Notes under the pieces: model-generated
Told to the model about the DNA's origin: nothing
Database searches by the model: none
The model's input: only the letters and a program-made list of their open reading frames with translations
Position numbers and translations under genes: made by a program
Source of the DNA: Pilaira anomala
Taxonomy: Eukaryota; Mucoromycota; Mucoromycetes; Mucorales; Mucoraceae
NCBI GenBank assembly: GCA_025716855.1
Contig: JAIXMQ010000020.1
Span: 248,001-312,000, forward strand
Direction: 5' to 3'
Length of the DNA stretch: 64,000 bases
Part shown: positions 38,571 through 64,000 of the stretch, piece after piece
Numbering within the stretch: the first letter of the stretch is position 1
Layout: each line of letters begins with the position of its first letter

Positions 38571-41500
38571 CTTTTATTAAAATAATGAGTTAAAAAGGAA
38601 GTTATTAGCTAATGTCTATAGGTTCATGAGAATTAGCAGCCGTAGTGAGATAATGAGAAAGAGAATAATTATATAAAGAGTCAGCTAGAACGTTGGACCA
38701 AGACGTGTTGTCAAAGATGCACATCCAGTGGTGGCGCCAGACGATTTCTAATACGGTTCCTAGAGAAAGGAGGATAGCCTCATCGATTAACTCACCAGAC
38801 TCATCGTGTAATGTATAAATGGAAAGCCAAACTGACTCTGGAGTTGGGAACTTGGCAGTTAGTTGTAAGCCGGCCAGTTGAGATTCCTAAAAGGACCACT
38901 TGTGAAAGCACGAGACAGTGAAGAAGACCATAATTGAAAATTCCATCGGAACAAAGTTGCTTGACAGCCAATTTTATTTTGAAGTAAGCGTCACCAAATG
39001 GTGACCACCTTGTGAGGCAGAGAGAGAGAGAGAGAGAGAGAGACCAAAAGGATTTCCAGAGGTTAGAAGAAAGATAGTTACTAAGGATAGCGTACGGGAT
39101 AGGGATTTTACCAGACCTGGTGACCTTCAAGTAATCCAGTTTCTTTTTACGACGTTGGAGTTGTATGTATGTACATATAACTGGAATAAATTAAAACATT
39201 AGAAATACGACGAATGGGGAGCACTTTGAAGGAATTAACACGAAGCACCCATTCAGATCCTGTGGCTGCAAAAGTTAACCTGTTATTAGGGGAATTGAAG
39301 TCGGAGGCACAAGGTAGGCTGAGGTATTCCAGGGCATGAACCGTTTTAATGACGAAGAACAAGATATACCACTATCAGGAGATTGAAGCTGACGGTATAT
39401 ACGTGCAGGTAAACCTGGTTTAGGTACTTCAAAAGATAAACAATTGTGGAACTGGTTGGCCGTGGATAGCTAATCCATAACATCATCAGAGACTAAATAC
39501 CGTGTAGCTATTTTATTAGGATCGATACCAGCGTTACTAGTAGTACTACTGTGGGAGTCATCACTAGTCGGTTCTGAAGAGGATAGCGCAAATCGTAAAG
39601 GAGAATCAGATATAGCCAGAGACCAGACCAGGTAGAGTTAAATTTCAAAGGAGGTAGCAGTGTTATTAACCTGGTTAAATGCGTCATCGTAGGAAGATGT
39701 TTTAACATAGGAACATAAAGAGAAGGATGTCGAAGCCAAGGCAGAAAGTTACGGTGACCAGTGCAAATATATATACGTGATGCACATATAAGAGGTGTTT
39801 CAAAATCAGTTGAAAATTTTGTATGTAACAAACGCTGAAGGTATATAAGTTGTAAAGATAGCTGTTGGATATGTGGATCGACAACACTTAAACCACCATG
39901 TGTGTTTTGGGTAAGCATATTAGATCCCAAGCAGGAGCTGGCCAAAATGGAAGAACAAAAGCTCGTATAGTACGTTAAATTTCAAGTAGCCAAGTAGCCG
40001 GTATAGGCACCACCCTTAGAATATGCCAGAGTCGACTAAGTAATAGAGAGTTCGCTACCAATGAAGAGCCACGAATCGTCAGATGTCGTTCACGTAAAAT
40101 AATTGAGTGGGTCTTGATTTTTTGTCTTGATATCCTCTAGGAAGTGAAGTAACCGGGACTGATTTGAGTATAAAGGATACCCTAGGTAATGTACGGCTGA
40201 AGTTGAGGCACCAGTATGATAGGAGATACCTGCTTCAGATGCGATGGCCTTCCACTCGGGATGCGACAAACCTGATAAAGATACTAGTTCTGTTTTCCGT
40301 ATATTCACCTTGGTGTTTCTTGCTCGACTGTAATATGCCAAAATACGTTGGAGATGGGTCTATTCAACAGATGATGATAAAAAGACTTCAAGGTCATCGG
40401 CGTAGCTCAACAATTTAAAATTCGGTAAGGACTGAGGGTCAATAGGATACCGGTTTATATCGCGATGTGAAGCAGCAGGTTTACCCAACCGTTATCAGAA
40501 ATCAGCCGGTTACGTATAAAACAGTTTGATATGAGTTTATTAAGGACGACAAGACACGATTGAATCGATTAGCGAGAAGCTTAATGAAGATTTTGGCATC
40601 CGTGTTAATAAGTAAAAGAGGCTGTCAATTACTGAGTAAAGTGGGATCCCCTTTTTTAAATAACAGTACCATTCGGGGTTGTTCCCAAGAGGTAGGATAA
40701 GATCTGGTAGTAAAAGTATCCTTCAATACCCTGGAAAATAAAGTACGTGCAGAATAAAACGTCGTAAAAATATAATGATATACTTCAAAAGGGATGCTAT
40801 CCAAACCGGGACTTTTACCACTGGGTGTATCGTCCACAACACTCATAATCTCACTTTCTGTAGGGTCTGCATCTAACATCTCTTGTTGGGATGAATTGAG
40901 TACAGCATTTGATGGGACATTAGTTAATAGAGCCTCTATGTCATCTTCTAATATATCGTCTACTGAATATAAGGTCTGATAATATTTCCTGGCTTCCCAT
41001 ATGATATCAGCAGTAGCAGTGACTAATTCGTCTGTATCCAAACACTTGACTAGTTGAGCCAGCAGGGAAGCAGTTAGAAAATTGGTAGATATCCAATCCT
41101 TCCAATCTTCAGTACCGGTAGTAGAGGGCAACGTCATATTGAAATCCCCTAAGATAAAACCTGGAACATCAGTAGCGATGTAATTTAAAAAAGGAAGATC
41201 TGCGAAACTGGTAAAGAAGAATGATCTTTCGGTGGGTAATGCTGAGGTGTATATATTAATAATTGATGCCACTATATTGCCTGAAGAGTTGATGACATGT
41301 GTTGCAATACTGCGTTGATCTCTGGATACCACTTCCTCCTTGAATTGTAGGTTGTTATTGAGACAAATAATAGCAGTGTATTTAGTGGTCACTGAAGGCC
41401 CATTTAGAAAAAGAAAGAGTTGAAAATAGAATTATTGTTCCTCAGTAAGAGAATGTTGTGAATGAAATGCAGATACCTCTTGAAGACAGAGAATATAAAT

Positions 41501-54500: not shown

Positions 54501-57500
54501 TCTGAGGTATGAATATCCCATACACCTGTACTCATAACAGCTACAATTGAAACTAATGTTTTTGGTATAATATGTTGTTGGTCGAATACGTGTCGAGGAT
54601 AATGAACTAATCGTTCATGACTTTGACTCATCATAGAAGAAGAGTGTAAAGACGAGGACAAATCTTCCATTTGTTGTTGTTGAATAAGAAATTTCGGTTG
54701 CCATAATAACAAGTCATTTTGAATGATTTGAACTTTATCCCAAATTGATTTTGTAAGATGCATATGGGTTTGTGGCAAATGACAATTCACTACAAATGTC
54801 TTTGTAACTAGTATTTAGTAATTATATCAGAGATTAAAGGGGGGGGGATAAGCTTACCGAGTTTTCAATTGTACTTTGTTTAAATATCATGGTGGATTCA
54901 GATTGATCTTCCATAGGTACATGTAATTTCTGTTCTCCATCAAAGCTCTCATTTCTGTTCAAGAAATCAAATAAATTAGATGGGATATCTGGTCCAGAGC
55001 CAAAATGAGTTGATCTTCGAGCAGAAGCATTGTTATTTAATTTATTTGAGTCTTGAATTGAGATTTCAATGGTAGGACATAATGCGCCTTCAGAAAATAC
55101 TTTTTTTCCTTGACTTGTCTTTGCAGTAAACCAAGTTTCAGCGAAATTATCTAAAGCGATTATTTTAATTCGCATACAGACAAAAAAAAAAAAAAAAAAA
55201 AAAATGAAAACTCGTTTAAAACTTACCTTGTTGAAGAAATACATTGACATAATTCAATTCAACATTTATCTTTGTTGGCTTTTTATCATTATGTACAAAC
55301 TCTTCAGTGACTGCAGATTGATCTGTATTGGACCAAGTAGCAGCTAATTTCTTTATATCGATACTTAATTGACTCTTGTGAAATTGATCGTTAAATTCAG
55401 TTCTTGTACTGGTTTGACTCATATCGGGCACAAATAGTAGAATTCGAATAAAGGCGCATCTTACACGTACTTTTTGATTTACTGCATTTTCTTGCGATTT
55501 TAAATCGTCAAAAACTGAAGGTCTTCTTTCGGAATGAAAAGTAGTATATGAAAATTGTCTCTCTTCTTCCTTTCGCTTTTTTAAGTTGTTAATAGCATGA
55601 ACATAACTATCAAATCGATCAATGATACGAGGATCAATTTGTAACTTGAAAGGTTGGATTTCAACTGCAGTATCTTGATCAAATGGAACCTCGATAAATC
55701 GACTCTTTTCATGTGATTGTTTCCTTTCAAATCGAATCCGTATTACTTCCGTGGAATTCTCTTCTCTGATAGGCTGTCTTGGATCGTATTTAGGAAATAG
55801 CTCTTCATCAAGATAATTGGATTTAATCCTATTATCAAATAATAAAATCGGATTATATGATTCATATCGAGTTCTAGTTCTATCCACGGATTGAATTACT
55901 TCTTTAGGTTTCTTAATCCATTCAGCTAATATGATATTTAATATCTTGGTATCTAAAGTAGAATTTCCTTGTGGGTATTGCTGTATACGGATATTTGCTT
56001 GTTCTATTGCAAATTTGATATGATTTTTGTTATCAAAGGGCGTGTTCCAGTCATTAACATGATGATCATCCGCTAATATAAATAATTCAACCAATGATAA
56101 GATGATCTTGATCTTCCGATCGGGATGTTCTTGTTGTAATTGTTGATGGTTGATTGTATAAGCAGAATGAAATGAATTTAAATCATCTAATAAAGTATCG
56201 GTATTATTAATAATTGGTTTATCCATTGAATCATCATGCGTCTTTTCAAATGACATTGAATCCATTAGATCCATAAAAAATGCAACTTGAAGTGGAGTCA
56301 TGGTTGCACGCATATGAGTTAATAAGAAATCAATTTGTTTAATAGGTAATGAAGAATTATCGTCAAGTGAAGGCCTTAATTTCAAACGTAAATGATTCCT
56401 TTTATTCATGGTTGTGAATAAAAGAGCTTTATAAGGTTGAGATGCTTTGGGTGTAATAGATCCACTTGAATCAAGGTTACTGAATATAGAAGAATTTGTA
56501 TCAAAGAACTTGGTTTGTGATAATGATTCTTCTATTTCTTGATTGATTGTGGTTTCACTTTGAGTGTGTAACGAATAAATGGAAGTTGCCGAATTAAGCC
56601 AAATTTCGGGAGAAGTAAATGTAATAAACTTGATTGTTTCATTTGTAGCAGGTGGTAATAAGATTGAACTTTCAGATAAATCATGTACTTGTGGATCTGT
56701 TGTATTAGTGAATTCAGGTGTTTCGTCGTAATAGGATACTCTAGGTATACATATATCGACATGGTATTCTCTTTCACTGTTGTCACCAGGTGCTACTAAA
56801 GGGACAGCTGATTTGTGACTTATACGTATAAGGGTATCAATAATGTCTATCTTGATCTTTGCCAACATCTTATCAATAACTTTTGTTAATACTTGAAGTC
56901 CTTCCATATCTACATCTTCCATATTTGTATGAAATGATTTTTGAATCGATTCATGTAATTCTTGTGTCTGTTCTTCTTCTATTTCTGATTTCAAAAAGTC
57001 ATCTGCGAAATGTAAAGAAGATGACATTATGGGTTCTTCGGGAGTAGGTGTGGGTGGACTTGTATCTAGAGAGAAGCTTCTGTTACATTTTTTTATTCCT
57101 TAACATTTTTTTTTTTTTTATTTTAATTTTTTTTTTTTTTTTTACCATTTGTTTTAGGCTTGTTCTTTACTGGTCTTAAAGCTAAATGTAAACCTTGAAT
57201 CTTTAAAGAAATATCTCCACTCCATAAATTTTTCCAAGGAATCGAAGCATGAATACAACCTACTCTTCCTTCCTCCAATATAAAAGGTGTATCGTTTAAT
57301 AACTTGTTCAAAGTCTGTTGTAAAAAAATAAGTCCTATTTTCTCTTCGCTAATATAACAAAAAAAAAAAAAAAAAGTTTACTTGTAAATTCAAGTCTAAA
57401 TCTCTTAATTCGACCGAACCCTCCATTAAACCAATGTCAAAGTTCTCGAGATCGAGCTCCTTTTCAAGGAATTGGCCGATAGCTCTTCTTAGTAAAAACT

Positions 57501-57573
57501 TGTATAATCGTTTTTGTATATTTTTTGGTAACGAAAAGTTGGTCCAATCCGATAAATAATTCCATGCTTTCAT
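51594..57573 (-). CDS. ATG2: autophagy-related protein 2 (lipid transfer)
   Basis: Eight exons: 57573-57382, 57314-57146, 57065-55227, 55150-54858, 54799-54326, 54256-52594, 52533-51677, 51614-51594; about 1835 residues with all phases closed. The N-terminal chorein domain reads KRLYKFLLRRAIGQFLEKEL..LENFDIGLMEGSVELRDLDL, as in ATG2 and VPS13. Long beta-rich groove segments follow, including an acidic low-complexity DEEDDDEDEE loop. The C-terminal ATG_C region has YPITLKVDYKPKYINYGNIK, LFHLDGAEMMLTHVKLTGI, GVADLVILPIQQY, TSSFARATAIEAIKL and ends KYKKRK. ATG2 bridges the ER and the growing phagophore and moves phospholipids with Atg9 and Atg18. Exon 8 is only 21 nt. The gene is divergent from the coiled-coil array. 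Confidence 0.95.
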
Positions 57574-58505
57574 TGCGTATAAAAACAGTGAAGAGAAAAA
57601 ACAAAAAAAAGGGTGAAAAATAAATAAAATAGTCAGAAGACAATTTTTTAGAATGGTAATAATAAGCACCCGCATGATAAGTGAAAAAAAAAAAAAAAAA
57701 TACATATAAGGTAATTTTTATTCAATAAATTTTGAGTCAGACGCATGAAAGTTAACTTTTTTTTTTTTGTTGTTGTCAGTTTTGAAAAAGTTTTTAATAG
57801 TACTTATATTTACAGCTTCTAGAAACTAATTACCGATAAATATAAATGAATTGACGAGATTCCCATTGTCTCCATGCTTACCTATACTATTTAGCAAAAC
57901 TATATAGCAAAAAACCATTTTTGACTGTATGAAAAGTAACCCAATGGATTGGATCTAAAGTCATATATGCACCTCTTGACTTTCTCACTATACGAAACAA
58001 CTTTAGTTAGTATCTGGAGATTGTTATTATCTCATGACTAAAGGAGTGATGGCACTAGTTTGAATACCGTATAAACGTTTGTATTCGTATTGTTGATCCA
58101 GGTATCAACCAAAAATCCTCTCTTTTCAGCATGAAATCTCCTGGTTCGATTCAATCTCCGTAAACGGACTTTTTCCTTCATCTGCTTTTGAATCAGATTG
58201 TTTGCAGATATACTGCCATTATATAAATATTATATGTAATCCAAACTTTGTTTAATTACTGTCAGCTTTTATATATGTAGAGTATATGTCTGTCGCCGAA
58301 AAAGGTCTTTAAAGAAAACAATCTTATTAAAATAAACACCAGAGTAGTAAGGACAAAAAACCTGATTAAATTTTAATTACACTTACATAAGAAATACCCA
58401 GATTATTATTTTCTTTTTTCTTTTTCTTTTTCTTTTTCTTTGTCTTTGTCTTTTTTTTTTTTTTTTTTTTTTTTACTTATACTATTAAATTTCAGCGTAG
58501 TTAAA
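57574..58505. other. divergent interval between ATG2 and the coiled-coil array
   Basis: 930 bp. It ends in a pyrimidine-rich (TTTTC)n/T-run leader (about 58412-58475) directly before the first array gene. No gene is seen. Confidence 0.55.
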
Positions 58506-59347
58506 ATGGTTGAAAAAATGATTCTAGGTCACGAAGAAGGTAATAATGTGAATAGATTTAAATAGTGTTATTGTTTCATTGATAAAATTTTAGAAAATAA
58601 AAATACGGGTATAACTATGATATAAACCAAAGAAAAAGAAGCCATTAGGATTGACTTTTTCTTTCTATCGGAAAACAAAGTAAAGGATACTTCACAAGTG
58701 TCAAGTACTGCCAAAGGTCCAGAACTAGACGTCGATACAGTGTTTAGTAGTTTACATAAAATACAGAAACAAATCAGTAATATAACGTTATCTGACAACA
58801 ATTTCAAGTCAGCCGTAGAACGCGTAAGACGTAAACAAGCAAATAAAAGTAAAAGAAAATTAATTTCTATTTTGGTGAATTCAAACATCATTAATCATTA
58901 AGCATATTTTTTTTTTATAAAGTACTTGCTTTGAATAGAATTCTATTTAAAGAAGAAGGTGAATCTTTTGACGCTCAACTTGAAGCTTCTATAAGTCAAG
59001 AAACTATTGATATGTTTTTGGAAGAAGCTGGGGTTAAGGCAGACATTGAAGCTAAAAAGATTGAAGCTAATAATACTATCGTAACTCTTCAAAAATTACT
59101 TGAGAAGGCTGAGCATGATATTGCTGTTTTAACTAATGAAATAGAAAGCTTGAAAACAGAGGTAAAAACTATAAAAGCTGAGAATTCTACCCTACAAAAA
59201 CATTTATCTGTTCAAGAAGAAACAACATGGAAGTTTTACGACGAACTTCAAGCATTGAATACAATATTTTATGGCACGCGTGAAATTACTAATGCTTTTA
59301 AAAGATGCACTAAACATTTGGGTCTTACCAGAAATAATAAAAATTAA
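58506..59347 (+). CDS. array gene A: small coiled-coil protein, unknown family
   Basis: Proposed exons 58506-58539, 58681-58848, 58923-59347; 208 residues. Exon 1 is 11 codons plus one base (MVEKMILGHEE), ending in a phase-1 intron. Exon 2 has the shared amphipathic motif SLHKIQKQISNITLSDNNFKS. Exon 3 has SQETIDMFLEEAGVKADIEA, then a ~70-residue coiled coil with EIESLKTEVKTIKAENSTLQ, and a C-terminal block EETTWKFYDELQALNTIFY. The exon 2 acceptor (58680) is the least certain; a site near 58640 would add about 14 residues. Closest relative: gene B, which has the same exon plan and blocks. No transmembrane or catalytic motif is seen. Confidence 0.65.
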
Positions 59348-59827
59348 TCGTTATAAAAAAAAGTTAAAAATACGACTTTAATACATATGCAAATTGAGTG
59401 TTAATCAATATTTTCCTGTTTAACTAAACTACTAGGATACCTATTACGGTATTTATCAGTGGATCGAGAAGTTTCCAATTACAAAATGATAAACTGTGGT
59501 CAATACATACAATTGACCTAAATTAATAAATGCCAAGAAAAAATTGAAAATACAAGCTTATTTAAAAGCTAAAAAAAGACATACAAGTATCTTACAAGAA
59601 TTTTGAGCGAATGACTAATATATCAATCCTAAAAAACCATCTTGAACGTAACATAATTTTTTTATACATCAATTTTTTGGTAGATACAGTAATTACGCAA
59701 TAATGTGACTTAATGAATCCTGTTTACATAAAATATATTATGTCATTATCCAATTTATCGTATCTATAAATACCGTTAGAAATATAATTTCTCTCCTTAT
59801 TTTTTATTAATTATAAAACAAATCAAA
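59348..59827. other. intergenic between array genes A and B
   Basis: 480 bp of AT-rich sequence with a TATAAATA box near 59764 about 60 bp before the gene B start. No other gene is seen. Confidence 0.5.
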
Positions 59828-60535
59828 ATGGAACTTGTTAACAATATTGAGGACTTGGAAGAAGGTAATAAATACATAGAATGCTGCTATTCTAAACCAT
59901 AACCCTTTTATGTACAGATCTCGTAAATATATCAATAGATGAAGGACGTAATAGCAGCTTTGAATCTTTAAGAAAATTGCAAAAAAGAATATCTATTGCT
60001 TTAGGATCAGATAACAACTTTGAGTCTGCTATGAAGAGGGTAAAAAATGCTCAAAAAAATAGACGTAAGCCAATTGATTTTATTTCAAATGAATCGAATT
60101 GTTTATTTAACATATATCTATAAACTAGTTTCGAATTATCAGGGTTCCGACAAACAAACTCAAAATCAAGAAACTATCGATACACTTTTGGAAGAGATAG
60201 GTATCATGACGGATATTGAGGCTTTGGAGGCTGAAGCTAAAAGGAATGATGCCAATAAGCAAAGATTACTCGAAGAAGCCTTGTCAAGTAATGCATTATT
60301 GATCAAAGAAAAAGAAGATATGCAAGAAATAATAAATGATTTAAAGATCAAAAACGTTGCTTTAGAGAAAAAGTCTCAAGACTATCAGACAATTGAATCC
60401 GAGTTAAATTTCCAAAAAGAGGCAACACAAAAATGCTATGGAGAAGTTAAAAGACTAAGTCAAATATATTACGCCAGAGTGCATGTCAAACGTAGCTTTG
60501 AAATTTGTGAAAATTTTCTTCGTAATAAACAATAA
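59828..60535 (+). CDS. array gene B: small coiled-coil protein, paralogue of A
   Basis: Exons 59828-59864, 59918-60064, 60129-60535; 196 residues with clean splice sites. Exon 1 is MELVNNIEDLEE plus one base (phase 1). Exon 2 contains SLRKLQKRISIALGSDNNFE, matching gene A's SLHKIQKQIS..SDNNFK. Exon 3 repeats A's order: NQETIDTLLEEIGIMTDIEA, a Lys/Glu-rich coiled coil, then NFQKEATQKCYGEVKRLSQIYY where A has EETTWKFYDELQALNTIFY. The introns sit at the same positions and phases as in A, so the two are tandem duplicates that have diverged strongly. Confidence 0.75.
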
Positions 60536-60845
60536 AAGCTGATTTATCTGATGTGTTTAATAACTTAAAATTCCTTCTTGGCAGCTTCTTCAAGTTTAGT
60601 ACATTTCAATGATTACATTTTAGTATTGAATACACTTTATAAACTATTTTAAAAGCTTTTAATTGCTCTTTACTTTATTTTCATAAGTGCTATTAAAGCT
60701 AAATTATGTAAAAGTCGATTGGTTTATTTTTATAACGCGTTTTGACCGTTTTTTTTTTTAAAAAAAAATAAGACTTAAAACTAACGCGTAAACTGATTTG
60801 TTCTTTTTTTTTTTCTTTTCTTTTTTACATAAACGAATTTACATC
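60536..60845. other. intergenic between array genes B and C
   Basis: 310 bp, AT-rich, with a foldback TTTTTTTTTAAAAAAAAA near 60751-60769 and a T/C-rich leader before gene C. Confidence 0.5.
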
Positions 60846-61187
60846 ATGGCTGACAATAACAATAATAAAGCTTTGGAGCAAGGTACATAAAAAACATAAA
60901 ATTATATTGTCTTGATTTGCTAATATGTAATATAAACAGATTATACTGCATTGAGAGTGGAAAACAAAAGGCTTCAAAAGAAAGTAAAAAAATTGGAAGA
61001 TCATATCAAGTCTCTAATAATAAAGTGTCAAAAGCTCGAATCTGACATAAATTTTCAGACAGAGGCGACACTAAGGTGCTATGATGCACTTACAGATTTG
61101 AGCAAGATGCCCTCTCCTACAAAATTTGATATACATGAAAAGTTGGCGGATTGTGAGGATTTAATTCAGATCGAATATGAAGAATAA
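60846..61187 (+). CDS. array gene C: shortened coiled-coil paralogue
   Basis: Exons 60846-60882 and 60940-61187; 94 residues. Exon 1 is MADNNNNKALEQ plus one base, with the same phase-1 intron as the other members. The second exon encodes only the end of the coiled coil (LRVENKRLQKKVKKLEDHIK) and the C-terminal block NFQTEATLRCYDALTDLSKM, very close to gene B's NFQKEATQKCYGEVKRLSQI. The LxKxQxxI and QETID blocks of A and B are absent. It is therefore a minimal version, by deletion of the middle or because the others gained it. The frame is intact, arguing against a pseudogene. Confidence 0.65.
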
Positions 61188-62010
61188 TTAATAAGCACAT
61201 ATACAGCTTATTTATCACTTTTTTTAAATAAAAAAGTTGAAGACATTTTAAATATAGTTTTTTTTATGGTAATGCTGTTTTTATTGCAAATATAAAAAGA
61301 GAGGGAACAGGAAGAATAATTTTGAATAAAGCTGTAAGGCTGTGTAAAAAAGTGTACTAAAAAAATATTTACTAGAAAACTGTCAACCGGGCTCTTTACA
61401 TTACATATTTAGTTATCCAATGTTAAGGTTTCTCACTTTTAACTACATACGTGCATGACAGTTTTTATTTCAAAATTGACAGGTTTCTTGTAGTAGGTCG
61501 TTTATCAAATGATCACTAATTTAGGTTTTTAAAATACACTTTAACTGTTGTCAATGAAATATCAGAATGTTCTAAATCTAGGCTATTATGTGGGATAATG
61601 ATAATTTTACCCGGATGTTGGGTAGATTAAAATTTGCGTTTAAGATGTAGGGATTGGACCGTAACTTCCAAAAGAAAATTATACTTGCGAATCAAATGAG
61701 GCTAATTTCTGAGCTTAACAAACATAATATCTTTTATTTACTATATCATCAAAATATGAGTAATTCTTTTCGACTAGAACCTTTGGCCTGAGTATTTTCA
61801 TTGATAATCAAAATTTCTACACACATACTAAGATATAAATAAATTATATGCTGTTATACCATCACCTTGTTCAATCCAATTTAGTTTATTTATTTGTTAT
61901 ACTACATATTGACTGTTTTTAAGTACCGCCAGGCTTAATAAGTATTACATAAATCAGTTTGCTTAGTTCATCTTTTTACTTTCTTTTTACCCACGTTAAC
62001 TGTTTTTGAA
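61188..62010. other. intergenic between array genes C and D
   Basis: 820 bp with no coding frame; AT-rich, with TATAAATAAATTATA near 61832-61846. Confidence 0.5.
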
Positions 62011-62956
62011 ATGATTTACACTGAAGGTATTATAGATATATATCATCTTGTACATTTTTAATGACTGTATTTTTGTTTAATAGAGTTTGAGCCTTTTTAT
62101 CCAGGTATATATTTAGAATATGTACACGTATGTATATAATAATTAATATAAGATCGTAGACGAGATCGTAGACGAAATCACAGACACCAATTCAGAATCT
62201 TGTCTCTCTATTGAGGCTGAGAGAGCAGATGATATAACTACTCGTGCTTTAAAAAAATTGCAAACGCAAATTAATATGGCCACAATTGAAGAATTTATGT
62301 TTGAAAATGCTATAGAAGAGAACAAAAAAAAGCAAGCGCTTCACTACAGCGAAATTAAAGATATAGTTATTAAAGCAGAAGATCAATTTGATAAGATGAA
62401 AGGAATAATTCAGAGATTTTCTAACTGTTCCAATGAGAATACTCAAAATTATGTTGATATCGGTCTTCATAGCCGCAAAATGAACGAACTTCTTGCCTAC
62501 AGGAGCTACGAATTGTCCAGATACTTTAGAGAAATAATGAATTCAAGTAAAGAGAACACTACTCCCTTTCGTGCCCAAAATCAAGATAGCCTTGGTGATT
62601 TCTTAAATAGTATTGACACATCTGGTGGTGCTTTTGAACACGAGAAGTATAACTTGATCAATGCTGGCCTTATTGAAGAAATTGAAAATCTAAAAGCAGA
62701 GATGAATTCTTTAACGAAGATGATAGAAGATAAAAAATCTGAAATATCTGTCGTAAAAAATGAACTCCACAATACACGACAAGCAATTGATACGAACTTT
62801 GAAAATAAATGTAATGAAATAAAATTCAAATTTCGTTCAAATATTGAAACAGCTCAAGCATTTTTAAATTCTTTATCACAAGCATATCATGCTCAAAACA
62901 AAATGAATTTTATAAACACCGTCAAACGTATAGCCGAAGCTCATAAAATTGATTAA
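62011..62956 (+). CDS. array gene D: longer coiled-coil member
   Basis: Proposed exons 62011-62026, 62084-62104 (21-nt microexon), 62160-62956; 277 residues. Exon 1 is MIYTE plus one base, again phase 1. The third exon reads SCLSIEAERADDITTRALKKLQTQINMATIEE at its start (the LxKxQxxI block), then a helical region, RKMNELLAYRSYELSRYFRE (62474-62530), a second coiled coil (LIEEIENLKAEMNSLTKMI) and a C-terminal SNIETAQAFLNSLSQAYHAQ. The RKxNELxAYRxYELS block is shared with gene E only. The first two small exons are inferred from phase and splice consensus and are less certain than the large exon. Confidence 0.65.
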
Positions 62957-63136
62957 AAACTTTATTGATATTCGTTCTATTATAAAAATAAAATAAAGCA
63001 ATTAAAGTGATAGGCGTATTCTTTACGTCTGCCGATTATTTTTATACTTACTCAAAATTTAAAAAGTTACATAATAAGTCAATATGTTAATTGGCTTCTT
63101 TTCTCTCCTGCTTTTTTTTTTCTCAAAATTTCTAAT
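62957..63136. promoter_or_regulatory. compact promoter between array genes D and E
   Basis: Only 180 bp separate the genes. A T/C-rich leader (CTCCTGCTTTTTTTTTTCTC) lies just before the gene E ATG, similar in kind to the leaders of genes A and C. Confidence 0.4.
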
Positions 63137-63912
63137 ATGAGTAACAAAGACGACCCTCAAAAAGTAGAAGAAGGTAAAAATAATACACAGGCTTATGTGC
63201 GTTCATTTTAATCCTCGGTATATTTCCTACAGGAAGTTTGCTATCTGAAAGTCCAAGTGAAGAAGGAGATTGCTCCACTTCTGAGCCAAAAATTGCTATT
63301 TTTAACAAACTTTTAAATACATTGAATAACTTACAACGAAAAATTGATATGGCTACAGATGAAGACGCGTCCTTTAAAGATTCAATAAAAAGTTTGGAAC
63401 AAGAGCTGGCATTTCAACATACGGATATTGGAAGTCATATCAATAAGACAAAGAATATAATTGATCACAATATAAAAAGGCCCGAAGGAAATACTGAATT
63501 TGATTTTCAAGGCCGTAAACTAAATGAACTTATTGCTTACAGAAATTATGAATTATCAAAATACTTGAGAAAAGAAATGGAGCTTAGGAGAAACTCAACA
63601 CTGGATGACCAGCTTAAAGAAGCTCAATATCAAAATGGAATTGAGGTTTTATTAAGTAAAATTGAAAACACTGGTTCAATTGGGACTATTTCTGAAACTA
63701 AGGTATCAATTGAAAACTGTAAATTAGTAACAAATTATTTGGTCAAGGAGAAGCAGAATTTACAAACAAAGATAAAAGTTTTAAAAGAAAACTTTACGGC
63801 TTTGGAGAATGAGAGCAGCGGTATGAAGTTAGAACTTGAAACAATTCAAAAAACTCTTAAAGAGATGAATAGAAAATCTCATGCAAATAAATCAAGAAGT
63901 TGGAGAAGATGA
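63137..63912 (+). CDS. array gene E: coiled-coil member, paralogue of D
   Basis: Exons 63137-63173 and 63233-63912; 238 residues. Exon 1 is MSNKDDPQKVEE plus one base, phase 1, like A-C. Exon 2 has an acidic Ser-rich start (SESPSEEGDCSTSEPK), TLNNLQRKIDMATDEDASF aligned with D's ALKKLQTQINMATIEEFMF, then RKLNELIAYRNYELSKYLRK (63514-63573) aligned with D's RKMNELLAYRSYELSRYFRE, and a terminal coiled coil (LQTKIKVLKENFTALENES). The protein stops about 40 residues earlier than D and lacks D's last helix; a further spliced exon past the window edge cannot be excluded. The gene lies 88 bp from the end of the window. Confidence 0.7.
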
Positions 63913-64000
63913 GTATATTATACCGATATTTGTACGATGTATACATCAATGAGCAGGAGAGAACTGGAATGTTATCTTAATTTCTATATTAAAGCTCTTT

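Follow-up and report, generated by a model that had tools for sequence, protein, structure and literature searches.

We have identified a tandem array of six related genes in the dung mould Pilaira anomala (Mucorales, Mucoraceae). Five of them (G1 to G5, positions 58506-63912) lie in a 64-kb window, by which we mean the whole stretch of DNA that was analysed (C113:248001-312000), and the sixth (G6) lies just past its edge; coordinates follow the window numbering unless a contig is named. We favour, with a probability of about 0.6, the reading that these genes belong to a taxonomically restricted family of Pilaira and its kin, that the family originated by tandem duplication and is subject to birth-and-death turnover, and that its products act as coiled-coil scaffolds or adaptors. 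Put most cautiously, the array belongs to a tandem family that is restricted to one lineage and undergoes birth and death, and its members encode soluble, helical and probably coiled-coil proteins.

All gene models are sequence-based predictions. The first-pass annotation had described an array of five forward-strand genes encoding 94-277 amino acids (aa), and our five fitted models agree with it. Its designation of a related tandem family held, but the array comprises six genes and one member is a truncated stub. G1 (58506-59347, forward strand, 213 aa) has exons at 58506-58539, 58594-58608, 58681-58848 and 58923-59347, of which the second is probable; this exon and the acceptor after it were picked by splice consensus only and are less certain. 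G2 (59828-60535, forward strand, 196 aa; exons 59828-59864, 59918-60064 and 60129-60535) yields, once spliced, an exact match to database protein P0001 (BD770DRAFT_427408). G3 (60846-61187, forward strand, 94 aa; exons 60846-60882 and 60940-61187) is the stub. G4 (62011-62956, forward strand, 277 aa; exons 62011-62026, 62084-62104 and 62160-62956) is identical over residues 1-114 to the partial 114-aa database protein P0008 (BD770DRAFT_427409), which also agrees with the 21-nucleotide (nt) second exon of this gene. G5 (63137-63912, forward strand, 238 aa; exons 63137-63173 and 63233-63912) matches P0002 (BD770DRAFT_410447) exactly. G6 occupies 64226-65136 (C113:312226-313136) and encodes 231 aa. 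The database search with the six-protein alignment, which was non-exhaustive, returned no exact counterpart of G1, G3 or G6, and these three genes may be unannotated in databases.

The six genes are arranged head-to-tail on one strand, with 480, 310, 823, 180 and 313 base pairs between successive members, and they share a characteristic gene structure. The short first exon ending in phase 1 that had been reported for the five genes was found in all five, and in 6/6 once G6 is included (34, 37, 37, 16 and 37 nt in G1 to G5; 37 nt in G6). A 21-nt second exon is present in both G4 and G6. An extra phase-1 intron, downstream of the LQ block described below, occurs in G1, G2 and G6 and is absent from G4 and G5. 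G5 ends at a TGA codon (63910-63912), and homology to its relative P0010 runs on in frame beyond this TGA, with no further stop for 41 codons, up to 64038. The gene may have been shortened recently, or the early stop may reflect a base-calling error or a 3' intron that went unrecognised.

Strong homology splits the array into group A (G1, G2, G6 and the stub G3) and group B (G4 and G5), with paralogue identity of 31-40% within groups. Each pairwise score was set against 200 window shuffles and as many shuffles that preserve heptad position, and under both kinds G1/G2, G1/G6, G2/G6 and G4/G5 gave z values of 10-24. G3 is tied most clearly to G2 (z 6-7), with z just 2.2-3.3 against G1 and G6. 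Using blastp, the expectation value (E) was 3e-25 for G1 against G2, 4e-13 for G1 against G6, and 3e-6 over 47 alignment columns for G3 against G2. A profile comparison of group A with group B gave E 0.0019 with a probability of 14%.

The two groups are connected by the LQ block, a 36-residue segment with an LxKLQ-like motif that occurs in 5/6 genes. It begins at residue 37 in G1 (58740-58847), 26 in G2 (59956-60063), 40 in G6, 39 in G4 (62237-62344) and 39 in G5 (63310-63417), all on the forward strand, with coordinates derived from exon positions. In G3, which lacks the block, the short first exon typical of the family is joined to a portion of the coiled coil and to the C-terminal segment. 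When the group A block (G1, G2 and G6) was slid along whole group B proteins, the best mean scores fell at residue 39 of G4 (36.7), residue 39 of G5 (35.0) and residue 37 of P0010 (40.3), and 0/2000 shuffled blocks reached the observed score in each of the three. As a control, a 1055-aa coiled coil encoded by the same genome scored 20.7 at best. A fourth group B sequence, P0004, starts inside the block and gave no peak (best score 9.3). The slide and shuffle test thus places above chance a motif that the first-pass annotation had noted in four of the five genes, with G3 as the exception in our models as well. Because the LQ block sits in the same place and the short phase-1 first exon is shared, groups A and B likely constitute one family, as judged from sequence and gene structure.

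Relatives of the family appear to be confined to Pilaira and what are probably its close kin. A database of 5.77 billion proteins was searched by a method that finds just those relatives sharing short exact words. With the six-protein alignment as the query, nine proteins were recovered at E <= 0.01, and with the group B alignment three were recovered at E <= 10, two of which had already been found. Every match came from P. anomala or from assemblies without a species label (source tag lgn); no homologue was found in another named species, although strongly diverged homologues in other genera would escape a method of this kind and, as no loose-threshold search with group A alone was made, remote relatives of that group may have gone undetected. 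The unlabelled contigs are inferred to belong to close kin of Pilaira. Database coverage, and not rate, was gauged with one exon of a nearby F-box/DUSP gene, which carries a conserved DUSP domain; in the same search this control returned 15 proteins at E <= 1e-5 (21 candidates). Four of the 15 are labelled by species (Pilaira anomala, Helicostylum pulchrum, Mucor mucedo and Cokeromyces recurvatus) and 11 are unlabelled. Since other Mucorales are evidently present in the database, the narrow range of the array family cannot be put down to missing genomes alone. Viral contigs scanned with the group B alignment yielded no relative, and no published description of the family was met in the open-licence literature on Pilaira and Mucorales, judged by title and the start of the abstract.

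Putative orthologues are 85.2% identical for G2/P0003 (135 residues), 69.5% for G4/P0004 (226 aligned residues) and 66.2% for G5/P0010 (213 residues). Open frames are kept in the relatives P0003, P0004, P0005-P0007 and P0010. P0003 and, less clearly, P0010 open with what in P. anomala appears to be intron sequence, so the contigs that encode them are probably genomic DNA.

The same genome also contains at least two dispersed copies outside the array, on contigs C1 and C215. They were found in six-frame searches of 34.25 Mb in 225 contigs (E 0.001 to 10), using G1, G2, G3, G4, G6, P0007 and P0010 as queries; G5 was stood in for by P0010, and copy counts are lower bounds. The C1 copy (L014) is G2-like, lies at about C1:528374-528988 on the reverse strand, and shows 73.5% DNA identity over 434 columns. 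Its frame is disrupted and most of the LQ block is missing, its introns are retained, and it has a database gene model of 151 aa, P0009 (BD770DRAFT_405684). The relatives closest to it, P0005-P0007, are three variants that are 96-98% alike and whose frame is open; the putative orthologous pair formed with P0005 is 81.8% identical over 77 residues. The C215 copy (L035; C215:477326-478075, forward strand) is G1-like with 71.8% DNA identity over 786 columns. It has a 37-nt first exon, retained introns and a disrupted coiled-coil exon, which is followed by a CT/T-repeat stretch. Because both copies retain introns, they arose as DNA copies, and a retrotransposed origin is unlikely. These two copies, which look broken and retain their introns, point to birth-and-death evolution of the family.

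Selection was gauged by the ratio of nonsynonymous to synonymous substitution rates (dN/dS), as Nei-Gojobori point estimates for six pairs, five of which had a finite dS. The estimates were 0.26 for G1/G2, 0.53 for G1/G6, 0.54 for G4/G5, 0.25 for G2/C1 copy and 0.45 for G1/C215 copy, with two of the pairs involving a disrupted copy; G2/G6 was saturated and dS was high in several other pairs. The G1 sequence used for G1/G2 and G1/G6 had one exon join a base off the final splice site, altering one codon. Bootstrap limits extended from 0.11 to 0.84 after saturated replicates were discarded (189/300 replicates kept for G1/G2, 291/300 for G1/G6, 19/300 for G2/G6 and all for the other pairs). The array orthologues of G2, G4 and G5, at 66-85% identity, evolve not clearly faster than the control F-box/DUSP exon, which is 81.4% identical to Helicostylum and 76.9% identical to the best-matching unlabelled assembly, with the caveat that the species compared may not match. 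The earlier proposal of fast evolution under diversifying pressure is not supported by dN/dS of 0.25-0.54 in five pairs or by this rate comparison. Overall diversifying selection is without support, and the overall values leave room for selection at single sites. The values below 1, together with the open frames in relatives, suggest constraint.

This bears on the strongest of the alternatives, in which the genes are mostly dispensable, decaying duplicates with little function left. The G3 stub, the end of G5 ahead of that of P0010, the broken-looking C1 and C215 copies and the great divergence of the paralogues would all be expected under such decay. However, G1, G2, G4 and G6 have open frames and common splice phases, G2-, G4- and G5-like open frames survive in relatives at 66-85% identity, and the dN/dS point estimates are below 1, which leaves wholesale decay an unlikely account.

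Searches of domain and structure collections identified no known family. None of the six genes reaches a curated Pfam cut-off (G6 as its last exon only; G1 and G4 as earlier N-terminal splice variants), and the best match was TPR to G3 (E 0.001, 19.8 bits against a cut-off of 27). Among seven sequences scanned against NCBIfam none reached a cut-off (best E 0.00018), and no Rfam family reached its gathering score in window positions 57000-64000. Solved structures gave weak matches only by sequence (best E 0.043 for group A; 0.0099, to a keratin, for group B) and none by fold at E <= 0.001 for either group. With these results, and with no homologue found outside P. anomala and the unlabelled assemblies, the first-pass view that no known family is represented stands; no profile match to a well-known coiled-coil family, which that annotation had named as a refutation, reached cut-off in Pfam or NCBIfam.

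The helical character that had been anticipated is reproduced in the predicted models, with high local confidence in group A and low confidence in group B. The group A model (G2 with eight other sequences) has a mean predicted local distance difference test score (pLDDT) of 75.0 and a predicted template modelling score (pTM) of 0.39. It consists of a single helix at residues 72-172, with ten-residue mean pLDDT of 83-98 over most of its length, a pair of short low-confidence helices at the LQ block, one short C-terminal helix and a variable N-terminus. Hydrophobic periodicity of 3.4-3.75 residues exceeds 500/500 shuffles in four of seven sequences (G1, G2, G4 and G5), and was matched by 19, 9 and 66 of 500 shuffles in G6, the C1 copy and G3, respectively. 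No transmembrane-like 19-residue window was present in any of ten sequences (highest mean hydropathy 0.80), consistent with the earlier remark that a membrane motif is lacking, and the proteins are predicted to be soluble and intracellular.

A conserved structural coiled coil (for instance from the nuclear pore, spindle pole or kinetochore) that has diverged until its homology escapes detection would account for the many weak sub-threshold Pfam matches, such as TPR (E 0.001, G3), SYCE1 and MIS13, and for the match (E 5e-5) between G2 and the 1055-aa coiled coil, which looks nucleoporin-like and is encoded by the same genome. Yet every Pfam match is under cut-off, and the families matched differ between genes, a pattern typical of generic coiled coils. 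The LQ block scores no higher than 20.7 in the 1055-aa protein, compared with 35-40 in group B members, and six divergent tandem copies are unusual for a core subunit. We regard this explanation as quite improbable. Similar reasoning led us to discard a core eukaryotic coiled-coil family, since the matches to Pfam and NCBIfam were sub-threshold and inconsistent between genes.

A selfish or self/non-self recognition cluster of the spore-killer or incompatibility type, in which paralogues pair as coiled coils and divergence sets specificity, fits the tandem layout, the lineage restriction, the within-group identity of 31-40%, the decayed copies and the stub, and the P0005-P0007 variants could be alleles or strains. 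Such a role is very improbable: the proteins have no transmembrane-like region or Pfam domain of any kind, and the overall dN/dS gives no sign of positive selection. Also, tptA and rnhA, which flank the Mucorales sex locus, are not among the flanking genes identified at the array, and no search was aimed at the sex locus itself. Slighter still is the chance that groups A and B are a heterotypic coiled-coil partner set with the LQ block for docking, a lineage-private recognition or selfish system with specificity set by paralogue matching.

Several observations weigh against the favoured reading of a restricted tandem family of scaffolds or adaptors. Of the eight loci, three are truncated or apparently broken, namely G3, the C1 copy and the C215 copy, and G5 may be shortened; this would also fit a family being lost. 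Given its database gene model, the C1 copy may still be expressed in some form and thus not be dead. Compared over their full length, members of different groups score weakly against each other (z -0.8 to 4.9), and gene structure and a single 36-residue block carry most of the link. The group B model (G4 with four other sequences) is mostly helical and poor (mean pLDDT 59.1, pTM 0.26). With low pTM in both groups, the models predict helicity alone, not oligomerisation.

Under the favoured reading, one ancestral gene would have been tandemly duplicated and diverged into two groups, leaving along the way a stub, a gene that may have been shortened and, dispersed elsewhere, two broken-looking copies. 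Through the long helix (about 100 residues in group A) the proteins may assemble into coiled coils, either homo- or hetero-oligomeric, while the LQ block may bind a partner common to family members. On shape alone, the proteins would be expected to serve as scaffolds or adaptors and not as enzymes.

The array lies in an ordinary genomic setting. Its upstream neighbour is ATG2, on the opposite strand, and downstream are a DUF3020 gene, the F-box/DUSP gene and a patatin-like gene. Elsewhere in the window, an open reading frame of 268 aa (40625-41431, reverse strand) looks like part of an endonuclease/reverse transcriptase of LINE type and had no Pfam match at E 0.001.

The array family may be set beside three known systems. 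A single 1055-aa frame at C151:45319-48483, the control coiled coil above, encodes what we take, by reading and not from a search result, to be a TPR/Mlp1-like nucleoporin. It resembles the array proteins in its long coiled coil and has weak matches to G2 (E 5e-5) and G6 (E 0.005). Unlike the array genes, it has no LQ block above background, and we read the similarity as probably one of generic coiled-coil type. The wtf meiotic drivers of Schizosaccharomyces are likewise lineage-specific and duplicated, with decayed members. They encode transmembrane poison-antidote proteins, whereas the array proteins are free of transmembrane-like segments (0/10). A third parallel is with the duplicated orphan families of Mucorales described in the Choanephora cucurbitarum genome paper (PMC5238444). 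There, orphans account for about 2-14% of the genes in the Mucorales columns of a genome comparison and are reported to be frequently duplicated to a high degree, most of them lacking Pfam domains; Pilaira is absent from the genomes in the table. The array family is alike in having no homologue in other named genera, in its duplication within the genome and in the absence of a Pfam domain. Its novelty is therefore at the level of sequence, and the kind of family is ordinary, such families being common in Mucorales. It offers a compact example of orphan-gene birth and death in which the members are tied together by shared intron phases and, if a function is found, would show a restricted protein family gaining a role in an early-diverging fungus. 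Compared with the orphan families of PMC5238444, the tandem layout, the shared phase-1 first exon, and the LQ block with its long helix are peculiar to the array family.

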